From a virus: DNA of 39,546 nt. Location of the stretch: the IMG/VR virus record IMGVR_UViG_3300036841_000390, positions 1 to 39,546 of that record; one strand, 5' to 3'. Within the stretch, counting starts at the first letter, position 1; each line of letters starts with the position of its first letter. Below are positions 4,018 through 38,767 of this stretch, piece by piece. A model generated the notes under the pieces. The model saw only the letters and a list, made by a program, of their open reading frames with translations, was not told the DNA's origin and did not search any database. Made by a program: the position numbers and the translations under genes.

Positions 4018-4354
4018 AAACAAACCACAACAACAAGAACCCTCCGGAGAAGGCCACCGCGATTATGAATTCAATCTCGATTGGTCAAAAAAATTCATTA
4101 AAAAAGTCGAAGCCGGCTTGCCAAAAGGTGTTCGCGTGGCCATAACCTCGTCTCACCACTTTCCCAACAGCTTGTTGATGATTTCATGGACACCGCCTCG
4201 AAATGCTCCCATAGGGAATTTCGCTGTTCCGATCTTCATGCACACGCCAACTAAAGAATTTATTAATAAATCGCAAACAGCTTTAGATCTACACGTGAGC
4301 ATGGCATTAAATTACATCGCGAAGCATGCCGAATTGGAGGTAAAAATTGCTTAA
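4001..4354 (+). CDS. Unknown protein coupled to the replication gene
   Basis: A 117-aa protein. The ATG at 4001 is preferred over the TTG at 3995 because AGGAGG (3986-3991) lies 9 bases before it. It overlaps the end of the initiator gene by 17 bp. A disordered polar N-terminus precedes an alpha/beta-looking domain with a WSKKFIKKVEAGL helix and strands around VRVAITSSHHF and SLLMISW. No family recognised. The context suggests a replication accessory protein, but that is inference from position only. Confidence 0.65.
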   Translation: MSNLFKNKPQQQEPSGEGHRDYEFNLDWSKKFIKKVEAGLPKGVRVAITSSHHFPNSLLMISWTPPRNAPIGNFAVPIFMHTPTKEFINKSQTALDLHVSMALNYIAKHAELEVKIA

Positions 4355-4626: not shown

Positions 4627-4797
4627 ATGAAATTGCAAACCATATCGGAATCTCAGATGGCCTTAATTCAGCGTTTAAAGGCCTTTTTAGACGATGTTGT
4701 AGAAAAAAGGACTCCAGAGTGCTTAAAACGAAATGACGCGATTTTTGACCCCTTAGAACAAGAAACAGAGACATTCTCACCTCCGGAGCCCTTATGA
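4627..4797 (+). CDS. Small acidic unknown protein
   Basis: A 56-aa acidic protein (MKLQTISESQ start, PPEPL end) with a central amphipathic helix of about residues 8-30. The ribosome site is weak (AAGGCG). Its TGA overlaps the ATG of the next gene (ATGA, 4794-4797), which supports it as a real member of the operon. No recognised family. Confidence 0.55.
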   Translation: MKLQTISESQMALIQRLKAFLDDVVEKRTPECLKRNDAIFDPLEQETETFSPPEPL

Positions 4798-5072
4798 CAG
4801 AAAACCAATCTCTACTTGCGTGGGTCGGCGGCATCGTCGGCGCGGCGCTCGTCCTCGTCGTCGGTGTCGTGGCTCATGACAGGCTCGCCATCGTAGACCA
4901 TCTCTTCGATTTTCACTTAGACGTGGCGGAAGTGCAGCGCGAATTGGAACAAGAGAGAGAAGATCGAGAACACAACAAAGCCGTGCAGCGCGAATGGTGT
5001 CGAGATCTAAGCTTTCGCGATCACGAAGTCGGGACCTGCACCCCTCCCGAGAACAACGGGAATCGGGATTAA
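4794..5072 (+). CDS. Single-pass membrane protein (spanin- or holin-like topology)
   Basis: A 92-aa protein. Residues about 8-28 form a strong hydrophobic helix (LLAWVGGIVGAALVLVVGVVA). A highly charged, helical soluble part follows (EVQRELEQEREDREHNKAVQ). An N-terminal anchor followed by a coiled coil is the layout of inner-membrane spanins, and the location among small genes at the end of an operon fits a lysis role. No outer-membrane lipoprotein partner with a lipobox is visible, so this is not certain. Confidence 0.6.
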   Translation: MTENQSLLAWVGGIVGAALVLVVGVVAHDRLAIVDHLFDFHLDVAEVQRELEQEREDREHNKAVQREWCRDLSFRDHEVGTCTPPENNGNRD

Positions 5073-32465: not shown

Positions 32466-32881
32466 GATCCTCTCCGAGCTTTTTGTACCTTTCGAACCGC
32501 ATTATTGTTCCTGAATTTATACCTATGCGCGCCGCTTTTTCTTCCGAATCTAAGTCTCCAATAAACATCTCTGTCCATTGTTTTATCCAAGGCAACATGA
32601 TATCCAAATTCTTGAGTCTTGTGATCCTTTTGGCTTTCGTGCTCTTTTTCTTTAATTTTCGCCCGCTCATACAATTGTAATATTTCCTGTTTTAAAGATT
32701 CGCATCGAGCCAATCTTTTGGGATTATTTTTTAACTTATACCACATTTTCTCAGCGGTATTGAGCATCTCAAAGATGCAATCGGAGGAATCACGCAGCTT
32801 AACACACGGAGTGCTCAGCAGAGTGGGATTAAAAAACTGTTTTATAAAAGGTGGTGAAATGGAAAAAGTTGTTGTTATCAC
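32453..32881 (-). CDS. Basic helical protein coupled to terminase
   Basis: A 142-aa protein. The GTG at 32881 overlaps the terminase stop (GTGA), with GAGG five bases upstream. Helical and basic (EMLNTAEKMWYKLKNNPKRLARCESLKQEIL, then RFGRKSGAHRYKF). The last 70 codons are also open in a second frame (32461-32670) whose translation looks at least as natural. So the true end may be that frame, an overlapping gene, or a frameshift product. Function unknown. Confidence 0.5.
   Translation of the reverse strand: MITTTFSISPPFIKQFFNPTLLSTPCVKLRDSSDCIFEMLNTAEKMWYKLKNNPKRLARCESLKQEILQLYERAKIKEKEHESQKDHKTQEFGYHVALDKTMDRDVYWRLRFGRKSGAHRYKFRNNNAVRKVQKARRGSLTA
32461..32670 (-). CDS. Alternative overlapping frame (69 aa)
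   Basis: Within the previous gene, a +1-type frame from ATG 32670 to TGA encodes a basic start and an HTH-like end (TEMFIGDLDSEEKAARIGIN, then SGTIMRFERYKKLG). The EEKAARIGINSGTIMRFER part resembles the recognition half of a terminase-small-subunit or resolvase HTH. AGGAA lies 13 bases upstream, which is poor. Kept as an alternative reading of the same DNA. Confidence 0.35.
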   Translation of the reverse strand: MSGRKLKKKSTKAKRITRLKNLDIMLPWIKQWTEMFIGDLDSEEKAARIGINSGTIMRFERYKKLGEDH

Positions 32882-34209
32882 TCAAACCTCGGGTTTGCTT
32901 CTTTAAACCATCTCTCTGCTTGCATATCGCTCACGCCGCTCTTACTCGAATCAACGTGAAGCTTAACAGAAATCGCCAAATAGCGCATCATGTCGGCACC
33001 GTGAGAGGCCCAGTCGTGCCGCGGCTTCTCCTTATAAGACTCCATCTTCTGATCAAACTCTTTTCTGTAATTCTCAAGACATTTAACTAATCGCTTGCAT
33101 TTATCGGCATCGATCCAAAGACGCGGGAAAATACCACGCACGGCTTCAATGCCATCCTCGAGACGGAGCTTGAGAGTAGGTAAGGTAATAAATTTGATAC
33201 CGAGGCAGGAACCCACTTCCCTTGCAGAAAGTCCAGAGCTAAAGGCATGAGACTCGATGTCATGAGGGGCGTAGTGATTTTCGTATATGTATGGTTTTTC
33301 TTTGAGGACTTGGGCGTAGTGGGGCAATCCTTCTCCGTGATTCTCGTAATAGTCGATGACATGGATTTCGTTGCCGATGAGCTGATAGAATCCGATCGCG
33401 CAGGAATCTCCGTAACCGAGATCCCAAGCGGTTGAAACTCGAGACTGTTTGTCCCAGGGAATACTCGAAATTCGATCCTCATCTCGTGCTTCTTGCAAGT
33501 ATCTAGCATAGTAACTACCTTCAATGCCAAGTGTAAATGAACAATAAAATTCTTGCTGGATAAAGTCCTCTGACATTCCAGCTTCGCGTTCCTTTTGTAT
33601 GTCTTCGGCGGATATTATTCCAGTGTCTTTTACAGTTAAGATTTGACAGAACCAGTCTTGATTAGATTTAGACATCTCATAAAGGTCTTTCGCGTGATTG
33701 GCACCGCGAGGCGTAAAATTAAATACTGCCCACCCTCCATTTTCCACCAAGATTGGTCGAATGAGTTGCCACGCCACGGGATCTTGAAGACTGTATTCAG
33801 TAAAAACACACCCAACAGGGTTAGTGCCCACAATGGAATCAATATTATTAGTGCCAATAATCTGAATAATGGAACCATTTCTAAGCCTGATTTTCATTTC
33901 GGTTGCGTTAGGAGAGCCGTCAATAAGATCTTTTGGAACGTGATCCAAGAAGCGGAAGCCATCCTTGTCAACGCCATCCCACAAAATCTTACGGCCTTGA
34001 GAGAAGTGGGGGAAAAAGTAGTAATAAATGCCGACTTTCTGAACGGCTCTTGAGATGAGAAAGTTCCAACACGTCTTCTCCTTACCGGCCCGACGATGCC
34101 ACACTAGGACAGCGCGCTTCTTTCCCCTCTTCATTGCCTCCCAGAACGGGATTTGATAGGGCCGAGAACGGTAATTAAGTGGGATTTCGATGTTTACTTC
34201 TTGTTTCAT
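32878..34209 (-). CDS. terL: Terminase large subunit
   Basis: 443 aa from the ATG at 34209; the TTG/GTG-type extension to 34239 would run into the structured RNA. HRRAGKEKT (about 38-46) is the Walker A region. VGCVFTEYSLQDP (about 132-144) is Walker B, with Thr in place of the usual Asp before the catalytic Glu, as in SEY/TEY-type podovirus terminases. NFTPRGANH is the coupling motif. The nuclease domain has TAWDLGYGDSCAIGFYQ, HYAPHDIES and DWASHGADMMRY, supplying the metal-binding acids. It drives DNA packaging into the prohead with the portal. No good ribosome site is seen. Confidence 0.85.
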   Translation of the reverse strand: MKQEVNIEIPLNYRSRPYQIPFWEAMKRGKKRAVLVWHRRAGKEKTCWNFLISRAVQKVGIYYYFFPHFSQGRKILWDGVDKDGFRFLDHVPKDLIDGSPNATEMKIRLRNGSIIQIIGTNNIDSIVGTNPVGCVFTEYSLQDPVAWQLIRPILVENGGWAVFNFTPRGANHAKDLYEMSKSNQDWFCQILTVKDTGIISAEDIQKEREAGMSEDFIQQEFYCSFTLGIEGSYYARYLQEARDEDRISSIPWDKQSRVSTAWDLGYGDSCAIGFYQLIGNEIHVIDYYENHGEGLPHYAQVLKEKPYIYENHYAPHDIESHAFSSGLSAREVGSCLGIKFITLPTLKLRLEDGIEAVRGIFPRLWIDADKCKRLVKCLENYRKEFDQKMESYKEKPRHDWASHGADMMRYLAISVKLHVDSSKSGVSDMQAERWFKEANPRFE

Positions 34210-34212
34210 AAT

Positions 34213-34387
34213 TGCCAAATGCAGGATTCGAACCTGCAATCAATGTGCCCTAATGCATTACGTAAAGCTAAGCAGCATGTCCCGGCGCCGGCGCTGTACC
34301 ACTTTACCCCATTACCATTGATAGACTTGCTCCCGGCATGACTGATGGCGGCCAGGATCCGTGTACTGCCAATCTCACCAATCTGGC
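34213..34387 (-). ncRNA. tRNA-like multi-arm structured RNA upstream of terL
   Basis: It fills the gap between two genes. On the minus strand, GCCAGAT (34387-34381) pairs with ATTTGGC (34220-34214) as a 7-bp acceptor stem with one G.T. After TG comes a D-like arm, GTG / CAC with a GG-containing loop (34378-34361). Next is a 7-bp stem with a 13-nt loop (34357-34331). Then a long arm: ATCAATG/CATTGAT (34322-34316 with 34245-34239), TAATG/CATTA, GTAAAG/CTTTAC and CAGC/GCTG. Last is a canonical T-arm GCAGG-TTCGAAT-CCTGC (34237-34221). No 5-bp anticodon stem with a 7-nt loop is found, no CCA is encoded, and the length (175 nt) is double that of a tRNA. Confidence 0.6.
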
Positions 34388-34392
34388 TTAAG

Positions 34393-34566
34393 TTAAATTG
34401 AAGGAGCCTCGCAAAATAACCTGCACGCCGTGAGTTGCGGATAGTCCTTCATAACTTGCTCTTTTTGCTGACCAGAAGCGAAGAGGTACGACCCTTCTGA
34501 GTTGGCATATATATATAACGTAGTTGGCTCCAAAGCGCCTTCGTTAATTGGTGTCCAGGGTCCCAT
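34393..34566 (-). CDS. 57-aa unknown protein
   Basis: The ATG at 34566 shares a base with the preceding stop (TAATG). The protein is mixed (MGPWTPINEGALEPTTLYIY, then SEGSYLFASGQQKEQVMKDY) and looks like a small alpha/beta or DUF-type phage protein. It ends 5 bases before the structured RNA begins. Unknown function. Confidence 0.55.
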   Translation of the reverse strand: MGPWTPINEGALEPTTLYIYANSEGSYLFASGQQKEQVMKDYPQLTACRLFCEAPSI

Positions 34567-34883
34567 TAGCACATCTCCTTCTTGGCTTTCTTAAACTTAT
34601 CGATCATAGGATCTCGTTTATCGCGGTCTTCTCTTTTCAGCTTCTCGTTGTTCTTTTCGGCGCCTTTGAGCACTTGTACAGCAGCTTTACTTTTGCCGGC
34701 CTTAACATCTTTCTCGGCTTTGCGCATGCTTTGCGTGATTTTGTGTATTTTCTTGTCCAATTTGTCCTCTAACTTGGTTAGTTTTGTTTGTAATTTCATC
34801 AGTTCCCACACAGTGCGATTGTGCTTGGGAGGAAAGTCATTTAGTGAGCTGTACTTTGAGATGATGCATTGTTTTAAATTCAT
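34566..34883 (-). CDS. Basic coiled-coil protein
   Basis: A 105-aa protein overlapping the methyltransferase stop (ATGA at 34880-34883). Lys-rich and helical: TVWELMKLQTKLTKLEDKLDKKIHKITQSMRKAEKD, then a second helical segment rich in Lys/Arg/Asp. No domain recognised; nucleic-acid binding is possible from charge. Confidence 0.6.
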   Translation of the reverse strand: MNLKQCIISKYSSLNDFPPKHNRTVWELMKLQTKLTKLEDKLDKKIHKITQSMRKAEKDVKAGKSKAAVQVLKGAEKNNEKLKREDRDKRDPMIDKFKKAKKEMC

Positions 34884-35845
34884 TTCGTCTCAACTTGAGC
34901 GATGCGCGCCCTTGCAATTTCACAGTACTGTTGTTCTTTCTCGATGCCAATTGCCGTGTAACCGAGCTTCCGAGCAGCGAGGATCGTGGTTCCAGAGCCA
35001 GCGAAAGGATCGAGTAGGATTCCGTCTTTTGAAGGCATTACCAGTTTGATTAGATATTCCATGAGTTTTAGGGGTTTGACGGTGGGGTGGGGATTCTTTC
35101 GTGGAGCACTATTCGCCTGATATTTTCGTGCCGATTCAGGATTAGTTCTTATGCAACCATCTGTCGTTTGTTCTGGGATCCTTTCATCTAGCCCCCCATT
35201 CCTCTCACTCGAAGAAGCCTTGGCGCAGTAGAAGAAGCGCGACGGCTCACCAAGCATCTCGGCGGCCTCCTCATCGAGAATCACGTTCGCGGGCCAGCGG
35301 CCTTGCACTTTTTTGCCAAGATAGTCGGTTCCGCTTCCAGGAGAACAATTGAATGTATCTTTTTTTGCCGTAGCTGGCGCATTAAATCGGATTTCTTCGC
35401 CAATCCTACACCCATCAATATTAATCCCCGCCTGTCCCCACTTCTCGGCATTTTGCTTAAAAGTGCCATCGCAAGGTTTCATGGCCATTATGATGGGTTC
35501 GTAAGCAGGCTTGAGAGCGGTGCCGAATCCCTCAAGTCCGAAATGATTGTGAGACTTAGGAAATCCCGACCCATAGAGCCACATAATTGTATCTCTAATT
35601 TGAAACCCAGAGTCTTCAATCGCGCAAGATAAGCGATGAAACGTTCTAGTTCCTCCCATGGCAAGCAGATAACTACCTGGTCTACATATTCTAATTGCTT
35701 CATGCCAGTATTCAATGCCTGGTATTGCATAATCCCACCCCTTTCCCATGAAGCTTAATCCATAAGGAGGATCTGTAACAATAGCGCTGATCGAATTCGG
35801 CTCAATTCTTTTCATCTCTTCGAGGCAATCGCCGTGGATGATCAT
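34880..35845 (-). CDS. DNA N6-adenine/N4-cytosine methyltransferase
   Basis: A 321-aa protein. DPPY at residues 25-28 (catalytic motif IV) precedes a variable region and then the S-adenosylmethionine loop DPFAGSGTT (279-287), so the motif order is that of beta-class N6A/N4C enzymes. PTVKPLKLMEYLIKL lies just before the loop, as in the family. No restriction gene is next to it, so it is an orphan, likely protecting phage DNA from host restriction or modifying regulatory sites. The target cannot be read from sequence. It is coupled to neighbours by ATGA overlaps at both ends. Confidence 0.85.
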   Translation of the reverse strand: MIIHGDCLEEMKRIEPNSISAIVTDPPYGLSFMGKGWDYAIPGIEYWHEAIRICRPGSYLLAMGGTRTFHRLSCAIEDSGFQIRDTIMWLYGSGFPKSHNHFGLEGFGTALKPAYEPIIMAMKPCDGTFKQNAEKWGQAGINIDGCRIGEEIRFNAPATAKKDTFNCSPGSGTDYLGKKVQGRWPANVILDEEAAEMLGEPSRFFYCAKASSSERNGGLDERIPEQTTDGCIRTNPESARKYQANSAPRKNPHPTVKPLKLMEYLIKLVMPSKDGILLDPFAGSGTTILAARKLGYTAIGIEKEQQYCEIARARIAQVETK

Positions 35846-36158: not shown

Positions 36159-36400
36159 TTCGGCACCTCCTTGTCTTGAAAAACAAATTCTCCCCTCCAT
36201 CCAATTATTCCAGAATCAGGAGAAACCCTGGAACTCGAGGGCCTCAAAATTATTGACTCATTTTGGACTGAGTATTTAACATCTCCAAGAGACTCAAAGA
36301 CTGTTCGCTTTATCGCACTTACGGCCATTTCAACGTAATCAGGACATGCTATATCTGAATCTTTTGCGGGCACCCAACGTCCAAACCAACCATCCTTCAC
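36155..36400 (-). CDS. Unknown protein
   Basis: An 81-aa protein. The GTG at 36400 follows GAGGTACCGAA and overlaps the terS-like stop (GTGA). Mixed alpha/beta composition (DYVEMAVSAIKRTVFESLGDV, then strands around SIILRPSS and GEFVFQDKE). No family recognised. Confidence 0.55.
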   Translation of the reverse strand: MKDGWFGRWVPAKDSDIACPDYVEMAVSAIKRTVFESLGDVKYSVQNESIILRPSSSRVSPDSGIIGWRGEFVFQDKEVPK

Positions 36401-36777
36401 TTCGGTACCTCATTCACGTATACGTTGTATTGAATCAAAGTCGCCTCTTCGGGGAGTTTTTGAGGCTCTCGGTATCCGCACTGCTGCTTGCTAAGCCAAA
36501 CTAATGCCGACATGTCACCAGCCATTGCTTTTTCAAACAATTTGCTCTTGAGAGATCGAGATCCCCTACTGCGTCCTCTTCGCAAAATATCGGAATAGCG
36601 AGCATAGATGGTATCAACGTGAACTCGCTCAACATCGGCAATCTCTTGAACGGTGCAATTTATAGCTGCAAGATCTTCCAGTCTTTGCTCATCGACAACC
36701 GCTTTTGGACGCCCACCCTTGTTAACCGCAACCGGCAGGTTAGAAGGGGATTTCGTCTTGCTTCGCTTTTTGGCCAT
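36397..36777 (-). CDS. Terminase small subunit-like DNA-binding protein
   Basis: 126 aa from the ATG at 36777 (AAGGTCGG upstream). After a basic start, residues about 25-75 give the HTH pattern of small terminases: GGRPKAVVDEQRLEDLAAIN, CTVQEIADVERVHVDTIYARY. The following SLKSKLFEKAMAGDMSALVWLSKQQCGY is the usual helical oligomerisation part. Such proteins recognise the packaging site and load the large subunit. TerL is encoded 2.2 kb downstream in the same chain, so they are not adjacent. Confidence 0.7.
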   Translation of the reverse strand: MAKKRSKTKSPSNLPVAVNKGGRPKAVVDEQRLEDLAAINCTVQEIADVERVHVDTIYARYSDILRRGRSRGSRSLKSKLFEKAMAGDMSALVWLSKQQCGYREPQKLPEEATLIQYNVYVNEVPK

Positions 36778-36910
36778 GCACCGACCTTGTATCAAAATAC
36801 GTAGTTAAAAAAGGCATTAACTTTGTTAAATTCTCACTTATTTCTTTGAGGCTCCACGCGATGTACGACAGGCTTTTTTCTGCTGACGCGGGTGGTTTTG
36901 GTTCACTCAT
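36740..36910 (-). CDS. 56-aa unknown protein
   Basis: ATG at 36910 overlapping the previous stop (ATGA). Helical middle (SAEKSLSYIAWSLKEISENL) and a polar end. The 3' end overlaps the terS-like gene by 38 bp. The longer frame to 36985 is the same frame without support. Function unknown. Confidence 0.55.
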   Translation of the reverse strand: MSEPKPPASAEKSLSYIAWSLKEISENLTKLMPFLTTYFDTRSVHGQKAKQDEIPF

Positions 36911-38054: not shown

Positions 38055-38312
38055 TTAAAGAGAATCAATAATTTCTTTCTCTTCTAATTCCTTAGCACTC
38101 CTTAAATCCCTGGAGACATTTATAAAACTGTACAGAAGGGCAATAAAAGGTAATTGATGTTCCGTCTGATCGGCATAAAAAGCAAAAATACCCCCCAAAA
38201 GCGCGCAGCATTGCTCTAAGTCAAAGTCATTCTTTTCAAAAATAGAGATAATTTCTTGTGAAGCTTTTTTAAGTTTTTTCTGTAGAAGAACATCTGCTGG
38301 TTTTTGCGTCAT
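38055..38312 (-). CDS. Small helical unknown protein
   Basis: An 85-aa protein coupled to the HTH gene (ATGA at 38309-38312). Helical throughout, with a hydrophobic core segment (CCALLGGIFAFYADQTEHQL, then PFIALLYSFINVSRDL). It could be a small membrane-associated or anti-repressor-type protein; no family recognised. Confidence 0.55.
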   Translation of the reverse strand: MTQKPADVLLQKKLKKASQEIISIFEKNDFDLEQCCALLGGIFAFYADQTEHQLPFIALLYSFINVSRDLRSAKELEEKEIIDSL

Positions 38313-38767
38313 GCTGTTTTACCAAATTTAAATTGCCGATAATCTTCGAATTTGACCCCTTTTTCCTTTTCGATTAAAGCAATCAAATCGTCTCTCATTA
38401 CGACGAAAGTTCTTCCCACTCTGCTGGCCCTGAGTTGACCGGTCCGAATGAGATGATACACGCGTTGCATGCTATATGCTATTTTAAGCTCATTACTCAC
38501 AATCTTGGCCACCTGGTGTACCGAAAAAGTACCCTCTTCAACGCAAAAAAGCTTTCTTCCATTGATTTCCCGCTCGTCGCGATTGTATTTGCTCAGGCGA
38601 TAACGATCGATTTCGGAACGAGAAACCTTGTAATGACCCCTAACCTTTATAGCGGTTAATCGTCCTTTTTTAATGGCGGTATAGACGGCGGCTCTTCCGA
38701 TTTTCGCGTAAGCGATGATTTCCGGCATCGAGAGTAATTCTTGGGGTTTTTCCATTTGGGTCCGCAT
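38309..38767 (-). CDS. Double excisionase-type HTH regulator
   Basis: A 152-aa protein. Two consecutive winged-helix/excisionase-type (HTH_17) domains are visible. The first, about 12-57, reads ELLSMPEIIAYAKIGRAAVY, then KVRGHYKVSRSEIDRY. The second, about 78-138, reads FSVHQVAKIVSNELKIAYSM, then SRVGRTFVVMRDDLIALIEK. Each has the helix plus RVGR/KVRG wing seen in MerR/Xis-like DNA-binding proteins. GAGGAG is close to the ATG at 38767, and the 5' 112 bp overlap the upstream HTH gene. No integrase is present, so it is probably a transcription regulator, not an excisionase. Confidence 0.7.
   Translation of the reverse strand: MRTQMEKPQELLSMPEIIAYAKIGRAAVYTAIKKGRLTAIKVRGHYKVSRSEIDRYRLSKYNRDEREINGRKLFCVEEGTFSVHQVAKIVSNELKIAYSMQRVYHLIRTGQLRASRVGRTFVVMRDDLIALIEKEKGVKFEDYRQFKFGKTA

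Follow-up and report, generated by a model that had tools for sequence, protein, structure and literature searches.

Type II tRNAs, among them tRNA-Leu (RF00005), combine a 7-bp acceptor, a D-arm with GG, a UUCGAAU T-arm, a discriminator A and a long arm in the variable position. All of these recur in the phage RNA gene described here, but this RNA and its homologues are 175–206 nt long, carry a 13-nt rather than a 7-nt hairpin loop and an 84-nt variable arm, and go unseen by ARAGORN and Rfam. With tmRNA it shares a tRNA-like shell, extra structure between the D and T arms and possibly aminoacylation, though it has a D stem and a hairpin, matches no tmRNA in ARAGORN or Rfam, and contains no recognised tag reading frame. 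YrlA (RF02553) likewise joins mimicry of the D and T arms to a long stem; here, by contrast, the ends form an acceptor rather than a Ro-binding stem, the model finds no match, and the analysed stretch holds no Rsr gene. The packaging RNA (pRNA) of phi29 is similar in length (174–175 nt) and a packaging gene lies nearby in the present phage, but our RNA is tRNA-like in fold, has no Rfam match and does not keep its place relative to that gene, terL. The stable RNAs C and D of phage T4 answer to a similar description, being phage-encoded, associated with tRNA genes and without an assigned function.

The RNA gene occupies 175 nt on the minus strand of a 39,546-base virus record (positions 34387–34213), which was analysed at full length and is called the window below. 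The preliminary description of this DNA had placed it correctly at 34213–34387 and gave no strand. Copies were compared in L002 (IMG/VR 3300020121_000346), the nearest relative, which has the element in the same place, and in L123 (3300031708_000004). The features are as follows.

34213..34387, minus: giant tRNA-Leu-like RNA, 175 nt (sequence, fold, comparison with L002 and L123)
34381..34387, minus: acceptor stem, 5′ strand GCCAGAT, partner 34214–34220; 2 of 7 pairs doubly changed in L123, none broken
34213..34220, minus: acceptor stem, 3′ strand ATTTGGC, plus discriminator A; CCA not encoded (sequence)
34361..34378, minus: D-like arm GTG/CAC, loop AGATTGGCAGTA with GG; 3 of 3 pairs doubly changed in L123 in a model-fitted alignment
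34331..34357, minus: hairpin in the anticodon-arm position, 7-bp stem TCCTGGC/GCCGGGA, 13-nt loop CGCCATCAGTCAT; C-G to G-C swap against L002
34239..34322, minus: long arm in the variable-arm position, ATCAATG/CATTGAT, TAATG/CATTA, GTAAAG/CTTTAC, CAGC/GCTG; two doubly changed pairs in L123
34297..34301, minus: internal-loop segment TGGTA, facing CTTAG (34268–34272); identical in all three copies
34246..34250, minus: bulge GGGCA; identical in all three copies
34221..34237, minus: T-arm GCAGG-TTCGAAT-CCTGC; identical in all three copies
32881..34209, minus: terL, ATG 3 nt after the RNA (PHROG terminase large subunit, E=1e-23)
34393..34566, minus: 57-aa ORF (MGPWTPINEG...), stop 5 nt before the RNA (read from the sequence; also in L002 and L003)
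34566..34883, minus: 105-aa ORF, with a homologue upstream of the RNA in L123 too (sequence comparison)

The RNA fills the gap between the stop of the 57-aa ORF and the ATG of terL, so that the minus strand reads 105-aa ORF, overlapping 57-aa ORF, 5 nt, the 175-nt element, 3 nt and the terL ATG at 34209. As first noted, the RNA ends 3 nt before this ATG, and no Shine-Dalgarno-like stretch is seen in the sequence upstream of it. No promoter-like site for the RNA itself was seen either, which fits its excision from a longer transcript. Upstream, a DNA methyltransferase gene (34880–35845, minus) and two small ORFs separate terL from a weak PHROG match to the terminase small subunit (36397–36795, minus, E=1e-5).

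Our working structure has 44 pairs and runs through acceptor, D-like arm, hairpin, long arm, T-arm and discriminator A, which is the arm order of type II tRNAs, the long arm standing where they have the variable arm. As in the tRNA family (RF00005), a 7-bp stem (GCCAGAU/AUUUGGC) closes the molecule, a 3-bp D-like stem holds GG in a 12-nt loop, and a 5-bp T-arm carries the loop UUCGAAU, of the UUCRANN form; the pattern GGTTCGAWTCC occurs once in the window, at this T-arm. The long arm spans 84 nt in four consecutive helices (7+5+6+4 bp) with internal loops. All five parts of the fold originally proposed (closing 7-bp stem, D-like arm with GG, 7-bp hairpin, four-helix arm and T-arm) are thus found. 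The remark that no anticodon arm is evident needs qualifying: a hairpin does occupy that place, but with 5–7 bp and a 13-nt loop in the window, L002 and L123, instead of 5 bp and a 7-nt loop, it is not an anticodon arm.

Thermodynamics lent this fold no help. Single-sequence folding gave no signal on either strand, the free energy of the 175-nt RNA on the minus strand was no better than that of shuffles (z = +0.72), and the L002 copy, though nearly identical, folded differently when unconstrained. Since energy is uninformative here, the evidence for the RNA rests on evolution. Standard tools were equally silent. At the element ARAGORN called neither a tRNA nor a tmRNA, and hence not the two ordinary tRNAs that might have been suspected, and no Rfam family matched at E up to 10 (tRNA, tmRNA, YrlA, T-box and pRNA included). 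In BLAST against phages and plasmids, nearly all matches were short ones between the T-arm and ordinary tRNAs, and the remainder were short and due to chance.

Comparison between phages is decisive. The L002 element differs from that of the window at 3 of 175 positions, against 180 of 1329 (13.5%) in terL, 54 of 156 (35%) at four-fold sites of terL, and 67 of 472 in the upstream ORFs. At the flank rate so few differences have P = 2.4e-8, and outside the element no 175-nt stretch has fewer than 8. Two of the three differences compensate each other, changing one C-G pair of the hairpin to G-C, and the third turns its basal T-A into C.A. A covariance model (R1), built from the window and L002 copies alone and run over 100 sources (1.24 Mb), found the third copy in L123 at full length (206 nt, 96.6 bits, E = 4.5e-24), in a phage whose TerL is 63% identical to that of the window. 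In the three-row alignment 99.2% of cells are paired and eight pairs are changed on both sides, a number reached in 0 of 500 shuffles (mean 2.8), while structures slid along the alignment gave 0 or 1; with three copies, two of them nearly identical, and an alignment fitted to the structure, this count leans towards the model. The model left the L123 hairpin unaligned, and by eye it reads CAGGC-(13 nt)-GCCTG, so that its loop, too, has 13 nt; an extra small hairpin is seen by eye before the long arm. The compensatory changes that the preliminary description had proposed to look for in related phages are therefore present, in the hairpin against L002 and in the doubly changed pairs against L123. 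Judged by these comparisons, the 175-nt RNA is real and far more conserved than the genes around it.

Further searches returned no additional copy. A pattern for the 5′ core recovered L002 only, and a relaxed long-arm pattern gave 39 new contigs, which are chance matches since the covariance model scored none of them. Covariance-model and arm searches of 234 Chlamydiota genomes gave ordinary tRNAs and chance matches; one match of 176 nt and 20.2 bits (G111) was read and set aside, as it had no tRNA-like T-arm.

To trace the origin of the frame, the acceptor plus D and the T plus acceptor parts were compared with one extra tRNA-Leu and with 85 tRNAs taken from two Chlamydiota genomes. The window RNA had tRNA-Leu in all six top places, though Leu makes up 13 of the 85; the first of these (L185) had itself been selected with the RNA model, unlike the other five. 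The L123 core resembles tRNA-Leu less clearly (Leu UAG 19, Phe 14), its best match being the same model-picked L185. In E. coli, A73, G18G19, A20a, A15-U48 and contacts of the D/T loops determine leucylation, and tRNA-Leu stripped of its anticodon and variable arms is still charged; for A. aeolicus, A14 has been named as a leucine determinant (PMC9976931). By alignment, the window RNA has A73, G18G19, A20a, A15-U48 and the T-loop contacts, with A14 replaced by G in the D-loop, a change that may weaken the core and leucylation. Leucylation thus appears plausible, and from these matches we infer that the RNA is derived from a leucine tRNA, its acceptor, D and T parts matching chlamydial tRNA-Leu best among the tRNAs compared. 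Of the origins first suggested, a tRNA with an insertion agrees well with this picture: the core is nearest to tRNA-Leu, the enlargement sits at the type II variable arm and the anticodon arm has been remodelled. A fusion of decayed tRNAs does not, given one acceptor, one D-arm and one T-arm; because all three are more conserved than the flanks, the RNA is not decaying.

On balance we lean towards a phage-encoded, non-decoding tRNA-like RNA that came from a leucine tRNA, is released by tRNA-processing enzymes, acts in trans, is possibly charged with leucine, and uses the long arm as its effector. The tRNA frame would let RNase P, 3′-processing enzymes and the CCA-adding enzyme cut a stable RNA from the late-operon transcript, and leucyl-tRNA synthetase might then charge it; with 13-nt loops it would not decode. 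Pairs of the long arm that change remain paired, as where TAATG/CATTA becomes TAAGC/GCTTA in L123, and the internal loops UGGUA/CUUAG and GGGCA are invariant, so that the arm could bind a partner, either protein or RNA. Among the roles to consider first, the RNA might serve as an adaptor, or it might act as a decoy for a host factor that binds tRNA. Rather doubtful is a more specific form, in which a leucylated RNA with a tRNA-Leu shell, the reported LeuRS determinants and no anticodon pairs the UGGU internal loop of its effector arm with its own or another tRNA's ACCA end. Were the leucylated, non-decoding reading true, the RNA would belong to a class of tRNA-derived regulatory or decoy RNAs, among several outsized tRNA-like RNAs of this phage family.

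The position next to terL suggests a different function, in cis: the tRNA-like fold would recruit RNase P and RNase Z, cut the late mRNA, set terL expression and leave a nearly leaderless terL message. The RNA does stop 3 nt before an ATG without a ribosome site, and the L002 copy abuts its terL in the same way. In L123, however, the order is the 105-aa ORF homologue (1989–2333), the RNA (2523–2728), four ORFs and then terL at 4068, which puts the RNA about 1.3 kb upstream of terL and disfavours both terL control and a packaging RNA; the RNA is syntenic with the upstream 105-aa ORF gene but not tied to terL. Moreover, an analogous 133-nt RNA in L089 comes just after terL, and for such processing a plain tRNA would suffice, leaving the conservation of an 84-nt arm superfluous. 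We therefore regard control of terL in cis, one of the original suggestions, as unlikely; the trans-acting RNA that had been listed beside it gains from the same shifts of place. The similarity to the phi29 packaging RNA, claimed for length alone, is accurate in length and goes no further, with no Rfam family matching. On the related contig L175, from a Chlamydiia MAG, the terL match is preceded at about 70 nt by an ordinary tRNA-Thr(UGU), so a relative holds a plain tRNA in the same slot. The slot of L005, between about 180 and 50 bases ahead of terL (5001), has a terminator-like hairpin and then a CAACGTTTA/TAAACGTTG stem enclosing repeats like CCATGCCATGCCTCGCCGTGCC, in the place of the tRNA-like RNA, and L007 shows more hairpins (4749–4860; GTACGGGATTTCCGTAC, CCTAGGAGTTTAAGCTCCTAGG) between a tRNA-like gene and terL.

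Long arm and T-arm are identical between the window and L123 at 84 of 92 positions, while acceptor, D-arm and hairpin differ; terL nucleotides are 62% identical, and 63 of its 95 four-fold sites have changed. Such identity could reflect strong constraint or exchange between phages, and it would also fit a short palindromic mobile element that had entered a phage tRNA-Leu at its variable loop. Yet the window holds a single copy, pattern searches found none elsewhere in IMG/VR, the 234 Chlamydiota genomes contain none, and an insertion would explain neither why changes in the arm come in pairs nor why the anticodon hairpin was rebuilt, which makes it quite improbable.

It is very improbable, too, that the RNA is an odd type II tRNA that nevertheless functions in decoding. 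The tRNA-Leu core speaks for this, as does the independence of leucine identity from the anticodon (PMC9976931), and a Leu anticodon triplet occurs in the hairpin loop of the window RNA (CAG) and of L123 (CAA), though chance often gives one in a 13-nt loop; loops of that size on 5–7-bp stems in three copies, and rejection by ARAGORN and Rfam, argue against it.

The strands of the long arm at 34295–34322 and 34239–34255 (minus) resemble the Ro60-binding stem of vertebrate Y RNAs, with no support from Rfam. Bacterial Y RNA (YrlA) combines such a Ro60-binding stem with a tRNA-like module (PMC8394870), so that a relative of YrlA was considered; as RF02553 does not match, the 5′ and 3′ ends of YrlA make the basal Ro-binding stem where here they make an acceptor, and a TROVE gene is absent from the window and present in 3 of 234 Chlamydiota genomes, the idea fails on model, topology and missing partner and is highly improbable. 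Barely credible is a prophage attachment site copied from the 3′ end of a host tRNA: the 3′ 26 nt do resemble chlamydial tRNA-Leu, but they are identical to no host tRNA found, a full paired acceptor and D-arm are kept, and no integrase occurs among 30 proteins tested, though an excisionase/regulator-like protein is encoded at 38309–38767 (minus). The sequence AAAGUGGUACAGCG agrees at 10 of 13 specified letters with the T-box antiterminator consensus, a lead at most, with no Rfam T-box match.

We also searched about 1.15 Mb of related loci with a simple descriptor (7-bp acceptor, 5-bp T-arm and D-arm with GG, at any spacing). Besides ordinary tRNAs, this returned several that are outsized and whose anticodon or variable arm is altered.

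L089, 8477–8609: outsized tRNA-like RNA, 133 nt, 9-bp hairpin with 11-nt loop, just after terL (descriptor)
L131, 9188–9287: outsized tRNA-like gene (descriptor; Rfam tRNA, 40 bits)
L136, 7484–7615: outsized tRNA-like gene (descriptor; Rfam tRNA, 35.5 bits)
L086, 1902–2020: outsized tRNA-like gene, about 50-nt arm seemingly in the anticodon place (descriptor)
L115, 12105–12201, minus: outsized tRNA-like gene (descriptor)
L007, 4651–4748: outsized tRNA-like gene (descriptor)

The window RNA scored 22.0 and the L123 copy 23.5, while one-strand base shuffles gave three matches at 22 or above and none at 23 or above. These genes appear similar in kind to the window RNA, with no homology implied; the R1 model matched L131 alone, weakly and through its tRNA parts. 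The 175-nt RNA is apparently undescribed so far, and it illustrates how a phage tRNA gene can become a large, conserved, non-decoding RNA missed by standard tRNA and Rfam searches. That so cheap a descriptor found more in the same family suggests that such RNAs may be overlooked elsewhere, and if this one is leucine-charged or a decoy, it would give a direct handle on roles of phage tRNAs besides decoding.

The family to which the phage belongs has a P22-like portal and a TerL like that of Pelagibacter HTVC010P. A portal search of 84,980 species genomes found a single relative, in the Chlamydiia MAG (L175). Portal relatives occur in 11 of 234 Chlamydiota genomes, five of them on 35–41-kb contigs, the size of a whole phage genome, with Chlamydiota being the one phylum searched in this way and MAG binning being liable to err. 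The likely host of this tailed phage family is thus Chlamydiota, and the window phage is probably a tailed phage of environmental chlamydiae. Members in Chlamydiota bins (L175; G001, G091, G123, G143, G164 and G225) include several phage-sized contigs, which are candidate tailed phages of environmental chlamydiae. In two further loci, upstream of the portal gene, ARAGORN calls a 77-nt tRNA with anticodon TCA as tRNA-SeC (L117:1850–1926; L118:1445–1521), possibly a phage tRNA that reads UGA.
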